From: Anabaena sp. PCC 7108
Lineage (GTDB): Bacteria > Cyanobacteriota > Cyanobacteriia > Cyanobacteriales > Nostocaceae
Length of the DNA stretch: 64,000 nt
Reading direction: 5' to 3'
NCBI RefSeq assembly: GCF_000332135.1
Contig: NZ_KB235896.1
Location: forward strand, 5,153,356 to 5,217,355
The position numbers and the translations under genes were made by a program. The notes below the pieces were generated by a model. The model ran no database searches. It was not told where the DNA came from and saw only the letters and a program-made list of their open reading frames with translations. Below are positions 51,956 through 62,631 of the stretch, in pieces (position 1 is the stretch's first letter; every line of letters begins with the position of its first letter).

Positions 51956-52004
51956 ACCACATATGCACATAGCAAATCTATTTTAATTGCATATGTGGTT
52001 TTTT
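51956..52004 (+). terminator. Terminator with 12-bp perfect stem
   Basis: Arms ACCACATATGCA (51956-51967) and TGCATATGTGGT (51988-51999) are followed by five to six T residues. On the plus strand it would end transcripts from the UbiB/small membrane protein side. It lies at the 3' end of the converging glycosyltransferase operon and may act in both directions. Confidence 0.65.
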
Positions 52005-53032
52005 CATTGAGTAATTTTATCCTTGAAGTTACTATATTTTAGCTTCAATCTATTAAATTTTTTCTGTAAAAACTTTGAACCATTGCGCTGTAACTGGACA
52101 AAAGGACTGGGACGGTTAAAAGATTGAGGACGTTGTTCTGGTGATTTTAAATATCGATAGTGTAAAAATACATCACGGTAAGCAATATTGACATCTTCTC
52201 CAGTACATAGCTGAGTAAATGCTGAGGAAGATACACTCATATAATGAAGATATGTAATTGGTTGTCCTTGGTCATATAAGATATTATCTACAACATTAAA
52301 TTGAGAAGACCAATGACAGCCTGTTGCTTCATCATGACAGGCATAGTTATAGTAAGAAATACCACTACGTAAAACCAAATAGTTGATAACTGTTTGATCA
52401 GAATCACCCCAAGCTAGTACATCAGATTCTCCCGATTCCAATTTATCTAATAATTGGTTTAAAGTAACTTGATCAAAAATACTTTTCTTAGATGCAAACC
52501 AACCAGAACAAAAAATATCATTTCTGATACTCTGTCGTTGGAAAGTTTCTTGGAGTTTTTCTTCAGACCATTCAAAAATATAGGTCAATTTTGATTTATA
52601 TTGAAAGTCATTTGTAATCCAATCATACCTATCTAATTTCTCATACACATCATCTAATGGTTTCATCAACAGAGTATCTGCATCAAAGAAGATAAACTTG
52701 TCAAAAGCACCATCTAAACAACAAAGTTTGCGATGTCTTTCTATACGAAAATTATCTGACAAACCACGTTCTCTCCAGAGCTTTAAAGCTCTAGGATGTG
52801 ATTTCCAGATACGAGTCCCAATTCCTTCCCAACGAGCAAGGGAAGCAGAATCATCAAATAAGGTAACATTATCTCTAGTAGCAATCTCTGCTTTTACCTG
52901 ATCTAATCTATCATCATAGGGAATAACACAAACAGGAATTTCTCTGCCAGCATTAGCTTCAATACTGTTAAGTAAAGCCACTAATTGGTCATAAACCACA
53001 TCATTAGCTAAGGTGTAAATACCGTTAACCAT
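52004..53032 (-). CDS. GT-A-like glycosyltransferase, paralogue 1 of 3
   Basis: About 342 residues from MVNGIYTLANDVVYDQLVAL, with AGGAG 13 bp upstream; the frame runs on to TTG 53047. A GT-A-type nucleotide-sugar fold is suggested by the DxD motif in FIFFDADTLLMKPL and the pattern of strands. The C-terminus (about 310-340) is basic. It is the last gene of the glycan cluster and closely resembles the genes at 53050 and 53945. The sugar and acceptor are unknown. Confidence 0.75.
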   Translation of the reverse strand: MVNGIYTLANDVVYDQLVALLNSIEANAGREIPVCVIPYDDRLDQVKAEIATRDNVTLFDDSASLARWEGIGTRIWKSHPRALKLWRERGLSDNFRIERHRKLCCLDGAFDKFIFFDADTLLMKPLDDVYEKLDRYDWITNDFQYKSKLTYIFEWSEEKLQETFQRQSIRNDIFCSGWFASKKSIFDQVTLNQLLDKLESGESDVLAWGDSDQTVINYLVLRSGISYYNYACHDEATGCHWSSQFNVVDNILYDQGQPITYLHYMSVSSSAFTQLCTGEDVNIAYRDVFLHYRYLKSPEQRPQSFNRPSPFVQLQRNGSKFLQKKFNRLKLKYSNFKDKITQ

Positions 53033-53049
53033 ATAAATACTCCTCAATA

Positions 53050-53940
53050 TTAAATTCGGTTAGTAATAAAAGGAAATAAGCGACGAGTGAGTTTAGGGAT
53101 AAAAGCTAATTTACCCTCATGTAGATAACGATAATGTCGCCATAACTGCCAATAAGGACTACCAGGTTTCATTTTTATACCTGCCCAATGCAAATATTTT
53201 AATCGTTTCCCTTGATCATAAAGGATATAATCTTGTTCTTGAAAATTGCGAGAACCGCCCCAACTACCAGGTCCACCACCAGGAATTTTGACGAGATTAC
53301 CACGTTTGGCAATTAACTTAAGAATAAGATAATTTAAAACAGGTTGGTCTGTGACTCCTTCAGAAAAATCAAAGTATTCACGATGTGTAGCACATTCTCG
53401 CAAAGTTTCATCCATTTGTTCATAGCTAATAACACCTTTTTTTGAACCCCAGAAGCCACTATTGAAAACATCTTCTAGTTGAATGTCTGTAAAAATTTGC
53501 TGCTCTTTTACAAGAGGAGAAAAAATATTTCTAAGTTTGTCATTAGCATGATGATAATCACAACAGAAGAAATCTAACTCAGCAAGTTTGTCTAAGTCGT
53601 TGGATATTTTTTCAAAGACGACAATATCCGTATCAATATAAATAAATTCATCTAGGGGTCCAAACCATGCCACCAATTTCCGCATTTTATTGGGTAAAGC
53701 TAGGAAGTCTCGATCAAAAATTTCACCTATACGTTGTGTAAATTTGTCAATTAATTCTAAGTCAGGGAAAATTTTGACATTGTGTAACGTAGCCAATGTA
53801 TCAGCTACTTTATGGTATTTATCATTAAAAGGAATGAGATAAACTGTGACTTCCTGGTCATATTGACGAATACTATTGAGTAAGGCAATAGCATTTTCAA
53901 TTACGTGGTCGTTAGCAACAATATAAATTCCCCGACTCAT
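53050..53940 (-). CDS. GT-A-like glycosyltransferase, paralogue 2 of 3
   Basis: 296 residues starting MSRGIYIVANDHVIENAIAL. DxD-type motif in FIYIDTDIVVFEKI; later FNSGFWGSKKGV and YDQGKRLKYLHWAG match the other two paralogues at the same places. It is the most divergent of the three and slightly shorter. Spacing to the next gene is only 17 bp, so cotranscription is likely. Confidence 0.75.
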   Translation of the reverse strand: MSRGIYIVANDHVIENAIALLNSIRQYDQEVTVYLIPFNDKYHKVADTLATLHNVKIFPDLELIDKFTQRIGEIFDRDFLALPNKMRKLVAWFGPLDEFIYIDTDIVVFEKISNDLDKLAELDFFCCDYHHANDKLRNIFSPLVKEQQIFTDIQLEDVFNSGFWGSKKGVISYEQMDETLRECATHREYFDFSEGVTDQPVLNYLILKLIAKRGNLVKIPGGGPGSWGGSRNFQEQDYILYDQGKRLKYLHWAGIKMKPGSPYWQLWRHYRYLHEGKLAFIPKLTRRLFPFITNRI

Positions 53941-53944
53941 ATAG

Positions 53945-54913
53945 CTATCCTCTAAATAATTTTAATTTTTGTAATGCTTTAGTTAGTAAACCTGGTGGTG
54001 AGGCGTTATAAGAACGAGGAGGATTTTTGAAAAATGGGCGTTTATCTGGTTCATGCAGATAGCGATAGTAAAGAAATAAGTCTCGATAAGGAAATTCAAT
54101 ATTTTCGCCTGCACATACGGCTTGACTAATCTTCGGTGTGATGCCAATGTAATGTAAGTAGGTTAAGCGATTACCTTTGTCATATAAAATTTTCTCTTTC
54201 TCTTCAAAGTGTTTAGAGGTGACGGTGCAACCTGTAACTTCCTGGCTAGGTAAGTGATGAGCTAAATTACAAATTTTTAGACCAGACCTCATAAACATAT
54301 AGTTAATGACTGGTTGATCACCTGTAGGATACAGAATTTCTCTTTCACCTGCGCGTAAATAAGATAAGAGTTTCGCTATACTATTTTCATCAAATAGACC
54401 TTTTTTAGATGCGTAAAATCCAGAACAGAATATTTCTGTATCTAAACGTTTTTGATCAAAAACTTCAAATAACTTTGGGGAGCCAATATTATAAACTTTG
54501 TCTAGCTGTTTAAATTGAAAATCATAGACTATACAATCATATTCAGCTAATTTTTGAAATACTAAATCTAGTGAATCCATCACTAAAGTGTCAGCATCAA
54601 GATAAACAAATTCATCAAATGGTTCATCGAAAGCACAAAATCGTCGATGTCCACCATAAATTCTGTATTTGCGGGTCATACTAGCTGGACTAGCTTCTAG
54701 CATGAATTGATCCCAACGTTGAATTGATTGTTGATTATCGTAAATAAATACATTGGGACGTTTGGCTATTTCCTCAGTTATCCGCTGGATTTTTTCATCA
54801 AAGGGATAGATACAAACTGGAATTTCTGAACCCAAGAAAACATCTATACTGTTGAGCAGAGCCACAAGTTGATCGAAAACGTAATCATTGCCAAGGGTGC
54901 AAATACCTTTCAT
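53945..54913 (-). CDS. GT-A-like glycosyltransferase, paralogue 3 of 3
   Basis: About 322 residues from MKGICTLGNDYVFDQLVALL. The open frame extends to 55024, but the extra part overlaps the upstream gene and does not match the paralogues, so ATG 54913 is the likely start, 4 bp after the stop of the GT10-like gene. DxD motif in FVYLDADTLVMDSL; FCSGFYASKKGLF and YDKGNRLTYLHYIG correspond to the paralogues. Probably cytoplasmic. Confidence 0.77.
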   Translation of the reverse strand: MKGICTLGNDYVFDQLVALLNSIDVFLGSEIPVCIYPFDEKIQRITEEIAKRPNVFIYDNQQSIQRWDQFMLEASPASMTRKYRIYGGHRRFCAFDEPFDEFVYLDADTLVMDSLDLVFQKLAEYDCIVYDFQFKQLDKVYNIGSPKLFEVFDQKRLDTEIFCSGFYASKKGLFDENSIAKLLSYLRAGEREILYPTGDQPVINYMFMRSGLKICNLAHHLPSQEVTGCTVTSKHFEEKEKILYDKGNRLTYLHYIGITPKISQAVCAGENIEFPYRDLFLYYRYLHEPDKRPFFKNPPRSYNASPPGLLTKALQKLKLFRG

Positions 54914-54917
54914 ATAT

Positions 54918-55880
54918 TTATGAGTATTGAGCAACGAAGTTTGATAACCAGTTGAGCAAATTGAGTTTGTGTAAGATAATTTGTCTAGCTTCGGCAATTG
55001 CGTCTTTAGCAGCATACCACGCATCAGGGGTGGAAGTTACTTCTTGGATATAAGCAATACCTTTTTCATCTAAACTAGGCAATCTTAAAAAACTACCTGT
55101 GGGTAATAGTTTATCTGCCGCTGTTCCACCATAGTAAATAGGTAAACACCAAGCTAGTAGACTATCCCAAAGTTTCTCACTCACATACCAATCATTACTA
55201 GTATAGTTTTCAATTGCTAGATTGTAGTAATACGGTGCCATTCCATACCATTTATTACCAAGTTCTCCCGAAGTTTTTACCCATTTTTGTAAACCACGTC
55301 CATAAAAATCAACTTGTAGCCCTTGAGATTGTAAAGATTGCAAAAAATCTAAACGTTGACGATGGTTGGCTGTGCGATTAATTCCTGAAGTAATCCAACT
55401 ACAGTTTGAAACTTTTTCTGGGCATGGCATTTCATCCAAATCTTGAAATGAATTAGAATGATACCAAATTGCTGGCATATAATCGGGCGTAGGAGCAAAA
55501 TCATCAGGCCCAGAAACATAGCCACAATAATTCTGAGCTTTTTGATAATTACGCTGGTTTATTTCTACAATTTCCTCTAAAGGTGGTTCTCTTAACAAAT
55601 AAATAATCTGTTCTTTATTGACACCACGTAATAAATTATGAATATTTAACTCTGGTTTTTGCTGCTGTTTCCGTAAACGTTCTAATAACGATAGAGGAGG
55701 TGATGGTTTAGGAAAATCAAACTGATACATAAGCAGGAAATCTGGTTTTTCTGCCAGTGCTTGCATTTGTATATTTCCCCAAACACCAAAGGGATGGGGT
55801 GTTTGTTGCCACAGCCAATCTGCCCTTGATTCTAAGGCGCGATAGCTGCTAATCATACCTACAGTTTTCATATTAGTCAC
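54918..55880 (-). CDS. GT10-like (fucosyltransferase-type) glycosyltransferase
   Basis: 320 residues. The C-terminal half has the GT10 donor motif: VDFYGRGLQKWV, then NLAIENYTSNDWYVSEKLWD and LPIYYGGTAADKLLP, which correspond to the alpha-1,3-fucosyltransferase block (FxLAFENS...YVTEKxW). The N-terminal half is a divergent acceptor domain. It may transfer fucose or a related deoxysugar onto the exported glycan. The stop lies 4 bp before the start of paralogue 3. Confidence 0.8.
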   Translation of the reverse strand: MTNMKTVGMISSYRALESRADWLWQQTPHPFGVWGNIQMQALAEKPDFLLMYQFDFPKPSPPLSLLERLRKQQQKPELNIHNLLRGVNKEQIIYLLREPPLEEIVEINQRNYQKAQNYCGYVSGPDDFAPTPDYMPAIWYHSNSFQDLDEMPCPEKVSNCSWITSGINRTANHRQRLDFLQSLQSQGLQVDFYGRGLQKWVKTSGELGNKWYGMAPYYYNLAIENYTSNDWYVSEKLWDSLLAWCLPIYYGGTAADKLLPTGSFLRLPSLDEKGIAYIQEVTSTPDAWYAAKDAIAEARQIILHKLNLLNWLSNFVAQYS

Positions 55881-55894
55881 TAATCAAAATTAGT

Positions 55895-57106
55895 TCAGAG
55901 GATGAGTGGAGGAAGAAAAGATTCATTGACGTAGCTAAGGATTTTGGTGGCACGATTTTCCCAAGAGAACTGCTTAACAAAATTAATAATTTCTGGATAA
56001 CCATCTATTTTTTTTGGATGTGTTTCTAAGACTTGTTGCAAAGCAGCAGCAAATTTAGTTGGGTTATCTGGTTCACTCCAAGCAGCAATGGCTGGAGTAT
56101 TTTTAAACTCAGTTAAAGAAGGAATTTCGGTAGCAACAACTGGATTTCCAGAGGCGAGGTAATCAAATAATTTTAAAGGAGATGTGAAAGTTGCGGCTTT
56201 TCCTAAGCAATGGGGATGAGCTAAAATATCGGCTGCTTGTAGCAATGATACTAGCTCATCATGCAGTATATACCCTAAAAATGTCATATTTTCAACTTGC
56301 TTGTCTTTAGTGAGTTGCTGGTAATGCTCAACTTCTTCTGAGTTACCACCAGCACAAGCAAATTGCACATTTGGCATTTCCTTTGCTACATCAATAAGTA
56401 TGTCAATACCTTTGAATTGTTTTAATGCTCCTGCATAGACTACCAATTTATCACGTCCATCTGGCAATAATTTTTCACGCCATGTTGTTAATTTTTCTGG
56501 TTGTCTTCCCATAAATAGGCTATTAAAACCATTGTGAATGGTAATCACTTTCTCTGGAGGCATACCATTTTTAATCATGCTGTCTCGAATGGTATCTATG
56601 ACAGTAACAGCAATTTGAAATAGGGGATTTTTCACAATTTCTGGTTCAAATTTTTTGTCCTCATGATGGTGATGTTCATAAATTGCCGGAATGCCATTTC
56701 TAATTGCGGCTTTGATAAAATTCCAGTTACGACTGTGAACTATTTTTGTATGTGGTAATATGTGGAATGGAAAATAATATTTAGTAGTAATAGTATTAGA
56801 GTTGGTAAATTTATTATGCCAACTATCAATAGGCCAAGGCATAGGTAAATTAGCTATTTTTAATTTATCTTGTAAATTGTAGTACTTAACAAGTTCGACT
56901 GATGGTTTTCGTGGTTGAAAAGGATGAGCTAGAAGCCAGGGATTCATGGCTTCTCGTCCTTTTTGGTAATGTATTAAGACAGTGGAATAACCTAAGTTAG
57001 CAGCCCCGTTAGCAGCGTTAGTTGACTGAACTAGATGAGCTGCTGGCTTGGGCAACTGTTCATTGATAAAAAATATGTAATGTTTATTTGTAGGATTATT
57101 ATTCAT
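55895..57106 (-). CDS. GT-B glycosyltransferase, family 4-like
   Basis: 403 residues with two Rossmann-like domains. The donor-binding C-domain shows LVVYAGALKQFKGIDILIDV, VQFACAGGNSEEVEHY, ADILAHPHCLGKAATFTSPL and KLFDYLASGNPVVATEIPSL, the usual EX7E-like region of GT4 enzymes. Between two cluster genes with short gaps (14 bp each side), so part of the operon. Substrate unknown. Confidence 0.85.
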   Translation of the reverse strand: MNNNPTNKHYIFFINEQLPKPAAHLVQSTNAANGAANLGYSTVLIHYQKGREAMNPWLLAHPFQPRKPSVELVKYYNLQDKLKIANLPMPWPIDSWHNKFTNSNTITTKYYFPFHILPHTKIVHSRNWNFIKAAIRNGIPAIYEHHHHEDKKFEPEIVKNPLFQIAVTVIDTIRDSMIKNGMPPEKVITIHNGFNSLFMGRQPEKLTTWREKLLPDGRDKLVVYAGALKQFKGIDILIDVAKEMPNVQFACAGGNSEEVEHYQQLTKDKQVENMTFLGYILHDELVSLLQAADILAHPHCLGKAATFTSPLKLFDYLASGNPVVATEIPSLTEFKNTPAIAAWSEPDNPTKFAAALQQVLETHPKKIDGYPEIINFVKQFSWENRATKILSYVNESFLPPLIL

Positions 57107-57120
57107 AATTATTTGAGATT

Positions 57121-59367
57121 TTACTTAATGCTGTCTTCAAATTTTTCTAAGTTACCGAGAAGATAAATGGCAGATTCATGGGCTTCTATGAGCAGTTGAT
57201 GTTGTAATTGATTTTGTTCAGTGACATTATCTGCTAGTGTGCGGAGGCTTGCAAATATAGGATTTAGAGAAGAGCGAAATTCATCAAACATATAACTAAA
57301 ATTTTGATAATAAGTAGTGATATTACTATGATTTTGTTCGGCAATTGAAACTAATTCTCCCTTGATTTGTCGATTAATTACATCATCGAAAACATCAACG
57401 GTATTGAGAATTCTCCATGCTGATTTGTAAGATTGTTCAAGTAATTCGTGTCGCTCTTGAGCATCATCTACTAGATCATCAAGTAATAAACTTAGCAACC
57501 CAATCATTGAGTTTAGTTGTGTGCGAATTTCGTAAGATATGCGGAGCAAGCTTTGATTTCGTTTTTCGGGAGTGTCAGACTTATTTGCAAATTGCATAGA
57601 GTACAGACGTGAATAGTAACCCCCTCTTTTGACTAGTTCTTCATGAGTTCCTACTTCCACAACACAGCCTTGATCCAAGACGGCAATTTGATCAGCTTTG
57701 CGGACTGTTGAAAGTCGATGGGCAATTATTAAGGTAGTACGATTATGACTCAGTTCATCTAGAGCAGATTGTACTAACCGTTCTGAAACAGTATCTAAGG
57801 CACTAGTAGCTTCATCTAAAATTAGAATTTCTGGATCTTGAACTAATGCGCGTGCGATCGCTAATCTTTGCCTTTGTCCACCTGATAACATCACGCCTCT
57901 ATCGCCTATTAGGGTATCAAATTGCTGGGGTAATTTGCTAATAAATTCATAGGCATTAGCGCGCTTTGCTGCTGTGATAATTTCTGCTTCTGTTGCTTCT
58001 GGTTTAGCATAGGCAATGTTATTTCGCACCGAATCATTAAAGAGAAAGGTATCTTGACTGACAATTCCCATATGCTTTCGCACAGATGTTAAATCGAATT
58101 CTCGTAAATCTATGCCATCAAAAGTAATACAACCACTTGTCGGATCATAAAATCTTGGTAAAAGGTCTGCTAAGGTGGATTTACCCGCTCCAGAACCGCC
58201 TACTAATGCCAAAGTCGTACCACAAGGTAAATATAAATTTACATCTTTAAGTACCTGTTTTTCATTGCCATTATACGTAAAGTAGATAGATTTAAAATCA
58301 ACTCCTTTGGTTAATGTTTTATAAGTAAGTTTACCGTTACTCATAAACGGCTTATTTTCTAGCATTAAAAAGTCACTTACCATATTTACACTGGTAGAGA
58401 TGCTGGCAAAGTTGCTCCTCAGAGTATTTAATTGAGAAACCAATGGCAGCAATCGCAATAACACTAATAAATATGTCAGCAGTACGGTAGAAATTGCGTT
58501 AATTTGATTAGCAAATAAAGTCTTACTTAAAAAAACAATCATCATTAAGCAAGTCACTCCCATGAATTCACTCAAAGGAGCGATCGCTTGTGAATTAACT
58601 TGAGCGTGAAAATCTGCTTTTTCACGAGTTCTAATTAAAGTTGTAATCCGGTCATATTCTCTGGCTTCGTTACCTGTGGATTTAACTAGCCTAATTCCGC
58701 TCAGAGTTTCTAGTATGGCGACTGAGTATGCCTTGGACATCTCGCTAAGTTGTTTGCCAAACTGTTTAGAACGAGCAATAATATGTTGATTCAGCAACGT
58801 CACTACTGACATCAAAGCCGTGGCCGCAATTGTTAGTTGCCAGGAAATTGACAATAATAAACCAACGAAAACTAAAATTGTAATTGATAAGGTGATTAAC
58901 CTAATAGTATTACTTATTGCAGTAGATGCCCGACCCATCTCTCCGCCTAAGCGATTAATTAAATCGCCCACCTTCATTTTAGTGTAAAAATCTATATCAA
59001 CTTTTAATAATATACTGAGTCCGGCCTCTCGCATATCCGAAGTTATCATCCTGTTCAAAGAACTTGATGTTAATGAACTCGTGTAAGCAGCTAAGTTCTT
59101 TAAAGCAATTGTAACTATGATAGCCCCTGCCATGAATACAATTCGGTAATTTTCTGGTACATTATCGAACGGATTCATTATTGCTTTGAGAATACCAGGA
59201 GCGCCTTTAAAGTCTACTTCTTGTCCTACGATTTTTAAAATAACCGGCACAATTAGCGCCGTGCTAATGCCGTTAAATAAAGCTCCAGAAAATCCTAATA
59301 TTATTGTTAATAAAATTAAGTTTGGATAAGGTTTGGCAAATCTTAGTAGTAGTTTTCTGGTAGACAT
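57121..59367 (-). CDS. ABC exporter with degenerate HisKA-like C-terminal extension
   Basis: 748 residues. Residues about 1-330 are a six-helix exporter membrane domain; about 355-590 the ATPase with Walker A GGSGAGKST, signature MLSGGQRQRLAIARAL and Walker B ILILDEATSALD. This MsbA/HlyB-type protein would move a lipid-linked glycan or similar out of the cytoplasm. Residues 595-748 are extra: two similar hairpin units containing SYEIRTQLNSMIGLLS (about 611-626) and DEFRSSLNPIFASLRTL (about 695-711). They resemble HisKA dimerisation helices (SHEIRTPLN), but the His is Tyr612 in the first and Asp695 in the second, and there is no kinase ATP domain. Confidence 0.88.
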   Translation of the reverse strand: MSTRKLLLRFAKPYPNLILLTIILGFSGALFNGISTALIVPVILKIVGQEVDFKGAPGILKAIMNPFDNVPENYRIVFMAGAIIVTIALKNLAAYTSSLTSSSLNRMITSDMREAGLSILLKVDIDFYTKMKVGDLINRLGGEMGRASTAISNTIRLITLSITILVFVGLLLSISWQLTIAATALMSVVTLLNQHIIARSKQFGKQLSEMSKAYSVAILETLSGIRLVKSTGNEAREYDRITTLIRTREKADFHAQVNSQAIAPLSEFMGVTCLMMIVFLSKTLFANQINAISTVLLTYLLVLLRLLPLVSQLNTLRSNFASISTSVNMVSDFLMLENKPFMSNGKLTYKTLTKGVDFKSIYFTYNGNEKQVLKDVNLYLPCGTTLALVGGSGAGKSTLADLLPRFYDPTSGCITFDGIDLREFDLTSVRKHMGIVSQDTFLFNDSVRNNIAYAKPEATEAEIITAAKRANAYEFISKLPQQFDTLIGDRGVMLSGGQRQRLAIARALVQDPEILILDEATSALDTVSERLVQSALDELSHNRTTLIIAHRLSTVRKADQIAVLDQGCVVEVGTHEELVKRGGYYSRLYSMQFANKSDTPEKRNQSLLRISYEIRTQLNSMIGLLSLLLDDLVDDAQERHELLEQSYKSAWRILNTVDVFDDVINRQIKGELVSIAEQNHSNITTYYQNFSYMFDEFRSSLNPIFASLRTLADNVTEQNQLQHQLLIEAHESAIYLLGNLEKFEDSIK

Positions 59368-59448: not shown

Positions 59449-60621
59449 TTACAAGTTAGCGATGACAGATTCCAGGACAGAAGACATAGAATTAATGCTA
59501 TATTTAGCTACACATCTTTCTCTTGCTTTGAGCGCACGCTGGTTAGCTGCATCCAAATCATCAAATATCAATTTAATCTTTTCTGCAATTTGTTTAGGCG
59601 ATTCAGGATCAACTAAATAACCAGTTTCATCTAAAATATCGGGAATGTCTCCCACTCGTGTTGCTAATACTGGCTTGGCCATTGCCATTCCATCTGTTAA
59701 CTTCAGTGGGAATTGAGCTAAAGCTGCGGTTGTATTTCGTTGTGGAACAATGACTATGTGTGCAGCTGCAACAATTTTAGGCATTTCTGTAGCTGGATAT
59801 TTTGGTAGTTTGATAATCCAACGTCCCCATTTTTTTGAGAGTTGAGCATCATAGTCATCATAAGGGCTTCCACCTACAATTACTAGTTTTAAGTCTGCTT
59901 CATTAAGAAGTTCAAGTGCCATTAATACATCTTCAACACCTTTATATGGTCTAGGTGCGCCAGGAAACATTAAAATTCTATACCCCGATAGACCATAGTA
60001 GACTCTACTCGTTTCTGGATCATAGTGATTGGGATTAAACAGTTCAGTATCTTTTCCATTAGGTAAATATATGCCTCCAAATCGCTCTTGCAAAAATTTG
60101 GTATGAATTGTGATAGCATTTGCTTTACCAGTCATGCCTTCAATCATTTTTAAATAAAATGGATGATCTGGCTGTCTCAAGGCACCATCCGGTTTTATAA
60201 TATCCCTATAAAGCTGCTTTGGAGAAACTTTATATTGCCATTTTTCACCACCATACCAACTTAATTCCCAGTCGTCTATATCTAAAATTATTGGTTGATG
60301 AGTTTTTATTTTTCGCAGTAATGCTAAACCAAAAGTTGTAGGTTTTGGTCTCATAGCATAAATAATATCACCATCAAGTTTTTTTAAAAGTTGAGAAGCC
60401 GATATTAAAAATTTTGGGTAGTTATAGCCGTTCAATTGACTGACTATAATCTCTGACTGAGGAATTACTGCGGCTTCTTCCCCAAATACAAACCCTATAA
60501 TTTCAACTTGATGATTCAATTTTTGCAGCGCCTGAGCTAACAGAAAGGAACGAACAGAAGCACCACCCCATCTTCCCGCTCCGGCACTCGATAAATCACT
60601 CACTAAGATAGAAATTTTCAG
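59449..60621 (-). CDS. GT-B glycosyltransferase, family 4-like, possible CTG start
   Basis: About 390 residues. Donor domain motifs: RILMFPGAPRPYKGVEDVLM, LKLVIVGGSPYDDYD, AAHIVIVPQRNTTAALAQFP and DGMAMAKPVLATRVGDIP. Starting at GTG 60603 would drop the first strand of the Rossmann fold and leave no ribosome binding site. Extending to CTG 60621 restores KISILVSDLSSAGAGRWGG and places AAGGAG 7 bp upstream, so I prefer this start, although CTG is rare. It precedes the ABC exporter gene. Confidence 0.8.
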   Translation of the reverse strand: MKISILVSDLSSAGAGRWGGASVRSFLLAQALQKLNHQVEIIGFVFGEEAAVIPQSEIIVSQLNGYNYPKFLISASQLLKKLDGDIIYAMRPKPTTFGLALLRKIKTHQPIILDIDDWELSWYGGEKWQYKVSPKQLYRDIIKPDGALRQPDHPFYLKMIEGMTGKANAITIHTKFLQERFGGIYLPNGKDTELFNPNHYDPETSRVYYGLSGYRILMFPGAPRPYKGVEDVLMALELLNEADLKLVIVGGSPYDDYDAQLSKKWGRWIIKLPKYPATEMPKIVAAAHIVIVPQRNTTAALAQFPLKLTDGMAMAKPVLATRVGDIPDILDETGYLVDPESPKQIAEKIKLIFDDLDAANQRALKARERCVAKYSINSMSSVLESVIANL

Positions 60622-61857: not shown

Positions 61858-62631
61858 ATGCACGTAATTAGTATAGCAGCACTTACAGACAACTACATAT
61901 TTTTGCTACATGATAGCAAACAAAATATTGCTGCGGTTGTTGATCCAGCAGAGGCGGAACCAGTATTACAGCAACTAGAGCAATTAAAAGCTGAGTTGGT
62001 AGCAATTTTTAACACACATCATCATCATGATCATGTAGGTGCTAATCAGCAGTTAATCCAAAAATTCCCTCAAGTAGTTGTTTATGGTGGAGTTGAGGAT
62101 CGAGGAAGAATTCCCGGACAGCAGGTATTTTTACAACAAGGCGATCGCGTACAATTTAGCGATCGCACTGCTGAGGTATTTTTTGTTCCTGGACATACCC
62201 GCGCTCACATCGCTTACTACTTCCCCCCAGTCACAGCATTGGAAGCAGGGGAGTTGTTCTGTGGTGATACTCTGTTTGCGGGGGGTTGCGGTCGCTTATT
62301 TGAAGGCACACCAGCACAAATGGTAGACTCCTTAAGTAAACTCCGAGCTTTACCGGATAATACGCGCGTTTGGTGCGCCCACGAATACACCTTAAGTAAC
62401 TTGCGATTTGCTCTTACCGTTGATCCTGATAACATCGACTTACAAAAACGTTACGATCAAGTTAAAGCTATGCGCGATCGCCACGAAGGAACAATTCCCT
62501 CACTTTTAGAAATAGAAAAGCGTACAAATCCTTTTTTGCGTTGGGATAAACCTTCGTTGCAATTAACAGCAAAACGTAATGAGCCTACTCAAGTATTTGC
62601 GCGAATTAGGGAAATGAAAGATAAATTTTAG
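61858..62631 (+). CDS. gloB: Hydroxyacylglutathione hydrolase (glyoxalase II)
   Basis: 257 residues of the metallo-beta-lactamase fold. It hydrolyses S-lactoylglutathione to lactate and glutathione in methylglyoxal detoxification. Metal motif [11 protein letters not shown], then [28 protein letters not shown] and CAHEYTLSN, with the C-terminal domain carrying the glutathione-site arginine and lysine (RTNPFLRW). ATG 61858. A single gene. Confidence 0.92.

Follow-up and report, generated by a model that had tools for sequence, protein, structure and literature searches.

The window, that is, the whole stretch of 64,000 nucleotides analysed here, belongs to the 5.89-Mb genome of Anabaena sp. PCC 7108, whose relatives are Nostocaceae, and carries an ABC exporter gene among genes for glycosyltransferases (Table 1). 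Indeed, this gene encodes a complete HepA/MsbA-like exporter of 748 aa that ends in a C-terminal tail of 154 residues: the domains ABC_membrane and ABC_tran are both matched by Pfam (79.4 and 122 bits), and the Walker A motif (GGSGAGKST), the LSGGQ signature and Walker B were recognised by eye in the translation. The best NCBIfam family of the exporter core is HepA (NF045513; residues 4-593), the heterocyst polysaccharide ABC exporter, with which it shares the core family, the cyanobacterial host and the polysaccharide setting. However, its 557.2 bits fall below the equivalog cut-off of 725 bits, and by this model the HepA of the genome is a separate, tailless gene (L167, G000:C2:234551-236314) that reaches 1044.4 bits to NF045513 and is 36% identical to the exporter.

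Table 1. Position of the exporter gene, its parts and its neighbours in the window
Feature	Positions	Strand	Basis
ABC exporter with C-terminal double pseudo-DHp tail, 748 aa plus stop	57121..59367	-	ORF, translation, Pfam
Transmembrane domain, ABC_membrane match, residues 62-304	58456..59184	-	Pfam
Nucleotide-binding domain (NBD), ABC_tran match, residues 373-522	57802..58251	-	Pfam
Hairpin 1, residues 604-665, HisKA-like (SYEIRTQLN...)	57373..57558	-	PF00512; predicted helices 605-629, 636-679
Tyr612 codon (TAC), phospho-acceptor position of hairpin 1	57532..57534	-	sequence, alignment
Hairpin 2, residues 682-748, diverged copy of hairpin 1	57124..57324	-	alignments; predicted helices 683-713, 719-747
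Asp695 codon (GAT), acceptor position of hairpin 2	57283..57285	-	sequence
GT4-type glycosyltransferase, directly upstream of the exporter	59449..60603	-	Pfam Glyco_trans_1_4; cluster c1 in 32/34 loci
Second GT4-type glycosyltransferase, 14 nt downstream of the exporter	55895..57106	-	cluster c7 in 13/34 loci
GT10 (fucosyltransferase-like) glycosyltransferase	54918..55880	-	cluster c5 in 18/34 loci
Three NCBIfam NF045582 genes (Npun_R2821/Npun_R2822 family)	52004..55024	-	NF045582-type in 20/34 loci
GloB-like hydroxyacylglutathione hydrolase flanking the locus	61858..62631	+	Pfam HAGH_C; cluster in 27/34 loci

Gene context was surveyed at 34 loci, including the window. The GT4 gene of cluster c1 lies nearly always directly upstream of the exporter, also beside distant forms whose tail has a single hairpin, and one of the three NF045582 genes matches GT8 at a score under the cut-off; no paper on Npun_R2821-type names was found in the openly licensed literature. 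Among ten further recurrent clusters that were scanned, four have no Pfam match and the other six correspond to glycosyltransferases, to sugar epimerases or to a pyruvyl transferase; no response regulator or kinase was detected by Pfam among the recurrent neighbour clusters scanned. The glycan setting assumed in the earlier note is corroborated by the GT4 glycosyltransferase present in 32 of the 34 loci. On the basis of the neighbouring genes and of the kinship with HepA and MsbA, the substrate of the exporter is probably a lipid-linked or similar glycan (or glycolipid) produced by the adjacent glycosyltransferases.

Other observations at these loci concern gene calling and signals. The ORFs 53945-55024 and 54918-55880, both coding for glycosyltransferases on the reverse strand, overlap by 107 nt, and translation of the downstream one probably begins inside the called ORF. 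At the edge of three loci (L001, L002, L003), ORFs of 880, 892 and 947 aa, which are putatively DnaB, are about twice the expected length of DnaB, and they possibly contain an intein. Scans for promoters (45 versus a shuffled mean of 41.0) and terminators (9 versus 5.8) are reported here with nothing claimed from them.

The C-terminal tail of the exporter

Pfam places the gathering cut-off of HisKA (PF00512) at 26.9 bits. Residues 605-658 score 26.2 bits, just under this value, when the whole protein is scanned, 28.8 bits in a scan of the whole genome and 29.2 bits in an 84-residue piece made of the NBD end and hairpin 1, and the 154-residue tail scored alone reaches 35.6 bits over two stretches. 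Furthermore, HisKA is matched by 27 of 30 diverse tails at E ≤ 0.01. For hairpin 2 scanned separately (81 aa), Pfam gives no PF00512 match. Its relationship to hairpin 1 (28% identity) is indicated by (i) a BLOSUM62 local score of 74, compared with a mean of 22.7 and a maximum of 48 among shuffled sequences, none of 5000 reaching 74, and (ii) profile-profile alignments with probabilities of 99.1 and 99.6% (E = 1.3e-18 and 1.2e-23). Judged by these sequence comparisons, the two hairpins are homologous to each other.

When the tail is predicted alone as a monomer, it forms four long helices (pLDDT 81.5, pTM 0.76), and the second helix of hairpin 1 extends beyond the HisKA match. A full-length AlphaFold model built from 14 sequences (pLDDT 49.2, pTM 0.28) was discarded. 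Foldseek and VIA-align retrieved generic four-helix bundles for the tail, many of them designed proteins; Foldseek returned 616 matches at E ≤ 10 and none at E ≤ 0.001, and the lack of kinase DHp domains among the best 50 of the 616 carries no weight. Structure searches were uninformative as a guide to the origin of the tail and were dropped. A sequence search of the PDB gave weak matches to kinase DHp domains (best 24.1 bits, E = 2.4e-4); entries of viral spike type, four in number (E = 0.016 to 0.89), were taken as coil noise.

No HATPase_c match was detected by Pfam anywhere in the 748 aa, and the protein does not qualify as a histidine kinase. PAS and CA domains are likewise absent by Pfam scan, which sets the exporter apart from the DivL-like family in domain composition. 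It nevertheless has two sequence marks of a DivL-like mechanism, namely a residue other than His at the acceptor position of hairpin 1 (Tyr612) and an Arg at +3 (Arg615). The earlier note had described, from the sequence alone, a complete exporter followed by two HisKA-like units that align with each other, lack the acceptor His (Tyr612, Asp695), precede no HATPase domain and might form a four-helix unit. This description is upheld by the concordance of Pfam, shuffle test and profile-profile alignment, by the sequence and the Pfam scan for the missing His and HATPase, and, at the level of prediction, by the four helices of the isolated tail. Of the partners to which the note thought the tail might couple transport, a signalling protein is favoured by the conservation pattern described below, and a glycosyltransferase is made less likely by tailless orthologues beside the same neighbour.

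Distribution and variation in Cyanobacteria

With a profile of 30 rows covering the NBD end together with hairpin 1, the fusion was found in at least 69 of the 386 genomes sampled from the phylum, counting matches at E ≤ 2.2e-26, a threshold at which weaker fusions may be missed. The counted frames are 669-884 residues long and match nearly the full profile, and these genomes span 16 family codes (hand count). The tier below the fusions starts at 9.6e-21; the rows just below begin at profile position 11 or later, and this tier consists of kinases where read, and also of second hairpins and long-linker exporters. The first search of the phylum supplied 40 loci for reading, of which 30 held tailed exporters and 10 held kinases, the latter confirmed by Pfam. 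In Nostocaceae, the tail query matches all 192 sampled genomes at E ≤ 0.001, where weak matches may be ordinary kinases, and 161 of them at E ≤ 2.5e-17 (hand count of the best-E column). Among named organisms, Anabaena catenula and A. lutea have the tails closest to this one (90%), a single tailed exporter is found by profile in the genome of PCC 7108 itself, and the plasmid collection gave no match by tblastn. Three further frames deserve mention: two second tailed exporters of f20-type genomes (L200 in G220; L201 in G308), with about 100 extra residues between NBD and hairpin, and a 746-aa frame (L202, G252:C56) with a weaker match to NBD end plus hairpin (5.8e-16), which is possibly a diverged fusion.

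The homologue set comprises 141 distinct exporters from 156 frames. Two hairpins are present in 116 of them by aligned length (115 by HMM, L100 failing), namely in the 111 rows labelled Nostocaceae, in L005, which clusters with these (112 rows of Nostocaceae type in all), and in four f20 rows; the 25 one-hairpin forms all lie outside Nostocaceae. In none of the 141 does the chain run more than 15 residues beyond its last hairpin, too little for a kinase ATPase domain.

At the acceptor position of hairpin 1, His is found in 77 of the 141 homologues, Tyr in 56 and another residue in eight (D, F, R, N, Q, G, G, V). The rows labelled Nostocaceae have His in 76, Tyr in 29 and another residue in six of 111, and the other 30 rows, L005 included, have Tyr in 27, His in one and another residue in two. 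The surrounding positions are far more constant, with S-1 kept in 134, E+1 in 135, R+3 in 140, T+4 in 119, L+6 in 136 and N+7 in 131 of the 141, counts that are biased upward because all rows were recruited by similarity to the tail. The core leucines (+6, +13, +15) are conserved as strongly as E+1 and R+3, and in 21 rows outside Nostocaceae R+3, L+6, L+15, E+26 and E+33 are invariant. A Pro is usual at +5 in HisKA; here this position is R in 87, Q in 44, another residue in ten and Pro in none. In hairpin 2, no acceptor His occurs among 116 sequences, E+1 is kept in 86, R+3 in 93 and N+7 in 88, and the mean identity within Nostocaceae is 42%, versus 65% for hairpin 1.

On the tree of all 141 rows, the H label needs 16 changes, at least 11 of them forced by starred branches, and a single loss of His was consequently rejected; the notion that Tyr is an oddity of Anabaena sp. 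PCC 7108 alone was rejected in view of the 56 homologues that carry it. An equal-rate model on a 69-row tree, crude and with six states assigned by eye, reconstructs Tyr (0.87) in the ancestor of the tailed clade and His (0.87) in that of Nostocaceae, so that His would have been regained and then repeatedly lost again. The term 'degenerate' used in the earlier note is thus apt for the protein of the window but not for the family, in which the acceptor position of hairpin 1 is occupied by His (77 of 141) as well as by Tyr (56 of 141) and the loss of His is not fixed. That note had also named, as a finding that would count against its proposal, homologues with a normal His and a kinase domain lost in this strain only: His-bearing homologues do exist, but the kinase domain is lacking in all 141 and not just in this strain.

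After the fusions themselves, the nearest relatives found for the tail are kinases. The ten that were read score 65-75 bits with the hairpin-1 HMM (best domain) and are all GAF-HisKA-HATPase proteins by Pfam; they were fetched because they matched tail profiles, and the comparison is a ranking of similarity and not a DHp tree. In the genome of PCC 7108, the same HMM gives 60 bits for the best non-self frame, also a GAF-HisKA-HATPase protein, followed by a 319-aa frame (47 bits) and by hairpin 2 itself (45 bits). The tail shares with the HisKA/DHp domain (PF00512) of GAF-type kinases the hairpin, the SxExRT-LN box and a similar helix 2, but it lacks HATPase and Pro+5, has an exchangeable acceptor, is attached to an exporter and is often doubled. 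We infer that the hairpin was captured from a GAF-type kinase and was later doubled in Nostocaceae. For hairpin 2 of two f20-type proteins, identity amounts to 40-41% with their own hairpin 1, on average to 29-33% with hairpin 2 of Nostocaceae (best single pairs 41-43%) and on average to 39-43% with single hairpins. A single origin of the two-hairpin state was considered and is doubtful, and such short units do not settle the matter.

Searching a sample of 373 genomes with the exporter core devoid of its tail yielded 74 orthologue-like matches at 533 bits or more (at least 46% identity), the next group having at most 452 bits (at most 40%). The tail is present in 68 of the 74, of which 65 were also found by the phylum profile and three are long-linker forms (two read). 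It is absent from five, located at the same syntenic locus (L194 in G020; L195 in G353; L196 in G449; L197 in G286; L198 in G240), and a single eroded hairpin (SYKFRSNLN...) in L199 (G339) is a possible intermediate of tail loss. All five tailless loci keep the same upstream GT4 and the GloB-like gene, and three also have GT10 and NF045582-type genes. In a tree with a paralogue outgroup, the six tailless or eroded rows require five changes, three forced by starred branches; two of these rows are long-branched, and the eroded one branches first with weak support. This pattern suits repeated loss of the tail, with an early absence as the alternative. Since tailless orthologues occupy the same locus, the tail is regarded as accessory, and these sequences suggest that the exporter core does not need it.

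Possible role of the tail

DHp hairpins are dimerisation elements. In the reading tentatively favoured here, a HepA/MsbA-type exporter carries the DHp hairpin of a kinase at its C-terminus without the kinase, and the tail would be a docking platform through which a response regulator controls a glycan exporter with no phosphotransfer. The hairpins would pair into a four-helix bundle beneath the two NBDs, across the exporter homodimer in one-hairpin forms and within each chain in two-hairpin forms; the conserved surface of the H-box would bind the regulator, and this binding would favour or hinder the closure of the NBDs and hence transport.

This platform is proposed by analogy with DivL, a Caulobacter pseudokinase in which, as described previously (PMC4211667), Tyr550 replaces the acceptor His, the substitutions R553A (+3) and T557N (+7) disrupt the binding of DivK, Y550H leaves the binding of DivK~P unaffected yet harms growth and cell shape, and the essential functions need no phosphorylated DHp. 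The tail resembles DivL in its acceptor Tyr and its Arg at +3, and the dispensability of kinase chemistry in DivL would suit it as well. However, DivL has PAS and ATPase domains, binds DivK~P, is not joined to an exporter and has a nearly fixed Tyr (PMC4211667), whereas His and Tyr exchange freely in the tail. Docking is favoured by the retention of E+1, R+3, L+6 and N+7 while the acceptor alternates, a strictness in E+1, R+3 and N+7 that would be unexpected for a mere coil; against it, the scanned recurrent neighbours include no gene for a response regulator or kinase, and E+1 and R+3 could be conserved for structural reasons or as a legacy of kinases. A narrower version, in which a regulator in one phosphorylation state docks on the kinase-dead DHp and opens or locks the pump without any change in transcription, His or Tyr tuning only its affinity, is considered speculative and rather unlikely.

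A close rival, nearly as likely as docking, is that the hairpins only pair and passively hold the two NBDs close, with no signalling partner. The pairing nature of DHp hairpins, the start of the tail right at the end of the NBD and the four helices predicted for the isolated tail would all suit such a clamp, for which the exchange of His and Tyr would be harmless and the strongly kept core leucines expected. A precedent exists in TmrAB, where a leucine-zipper-like C-terminal motif stabilises the NBD dimer (PMC7756269); both would be C-terminal extensions holding NBDs together, but the TmrAB motif is zipper-like, and kinase-derived hairpins are not mentioned in the part of that account available. 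A clamp explains less well why S-1, E+1, R+3 and N+7 are among the most conserved positions of the tail. In kinases, these residues form a docking or catalytic surface. The data on DivL likewise place H-box residues there (PMC4211667). Moreover, the two hairpins of one chain could pair with each other and would then not necessarily clamp the NBDs. Docking and clamping may also hold at once.

The remaining explanations are less probable. That the tail docks the cognate upstream GT4 and couples glycan synthesis to export is unlikely: cluster c1 accompanies the exporter in 32 of 34 loci, including distant one-hairpin forms, but the same GT4 adjoins the exporter in all five tailless loci, which weakens the idea, as the two genes stay paired even where the tail is missing. 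It is less probable still that a His-bearing hairpin 1 acts as a live step of a phosphorelay, phosphorylated in trans by another kinase or through back-transfer from a regulator. Such a step would be in keeping with the 77 His-bearing sequences, nearly all from Nostocaceae (76 of the 111 so labelled), with the His reconstructed for their ancestor by the simple model and with the retention of E+1 and T+4. It is opposed by the Tyr of the present protein and of 55 other homologues, by the eight further substitutions, by the repeated changes on the tree with a Tyr ancestor of the tailed clade, and by the absence of Pro+5 from all 141. Given the ready exchange of His and Tyr and the lack of a kinase domain, phosphotransfer is unlikely as a conserved function of the tail, and a docking surface fits better. 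Finally, a functionless relic of a kinase gene fused by chance seems highly improbable: the tail is missing in five and eroded in one of the 74 orthologue-like matches and hairpin 2 has diverged more than hairpin 1, but 68 of the 74 retain the tail, the fusion occurs in 16 family codes, and some of its residues are near-invariant.

Exporters with accessory NBD extensions are known, and so are pseudo-DHp proteins. No description of their fusion was found in the openly licensed literature, covered mostly as titles and listings, so that this absence is weak; the terms HisKA, histidine kinase, MsbA and HepA are all absent from the main text of PMC4594306, and 'ABC transporter' from the text of PMC8011034. 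The union of exporter and pseudo-DHp as a widespread cyanobacterial module appears to be new. One practical consequence is that counts of cyanobacterial histidine kinases based on HisKA only may wrongly include such exporters.

The tailless, one-hairpin, two-hairpin and His or Tyr forms provide ready-made natural comparisons. Together, the data suggest that signalling proteins hold the pump together or switch it. Were the tail indeed a docking platform, as tentatively preferred here, it would represent a signalling domain stripped of its chemistry and placed on a transporter, and it would offer Cyanobacteria a fast, post-translational control of the export of envelope glycans.
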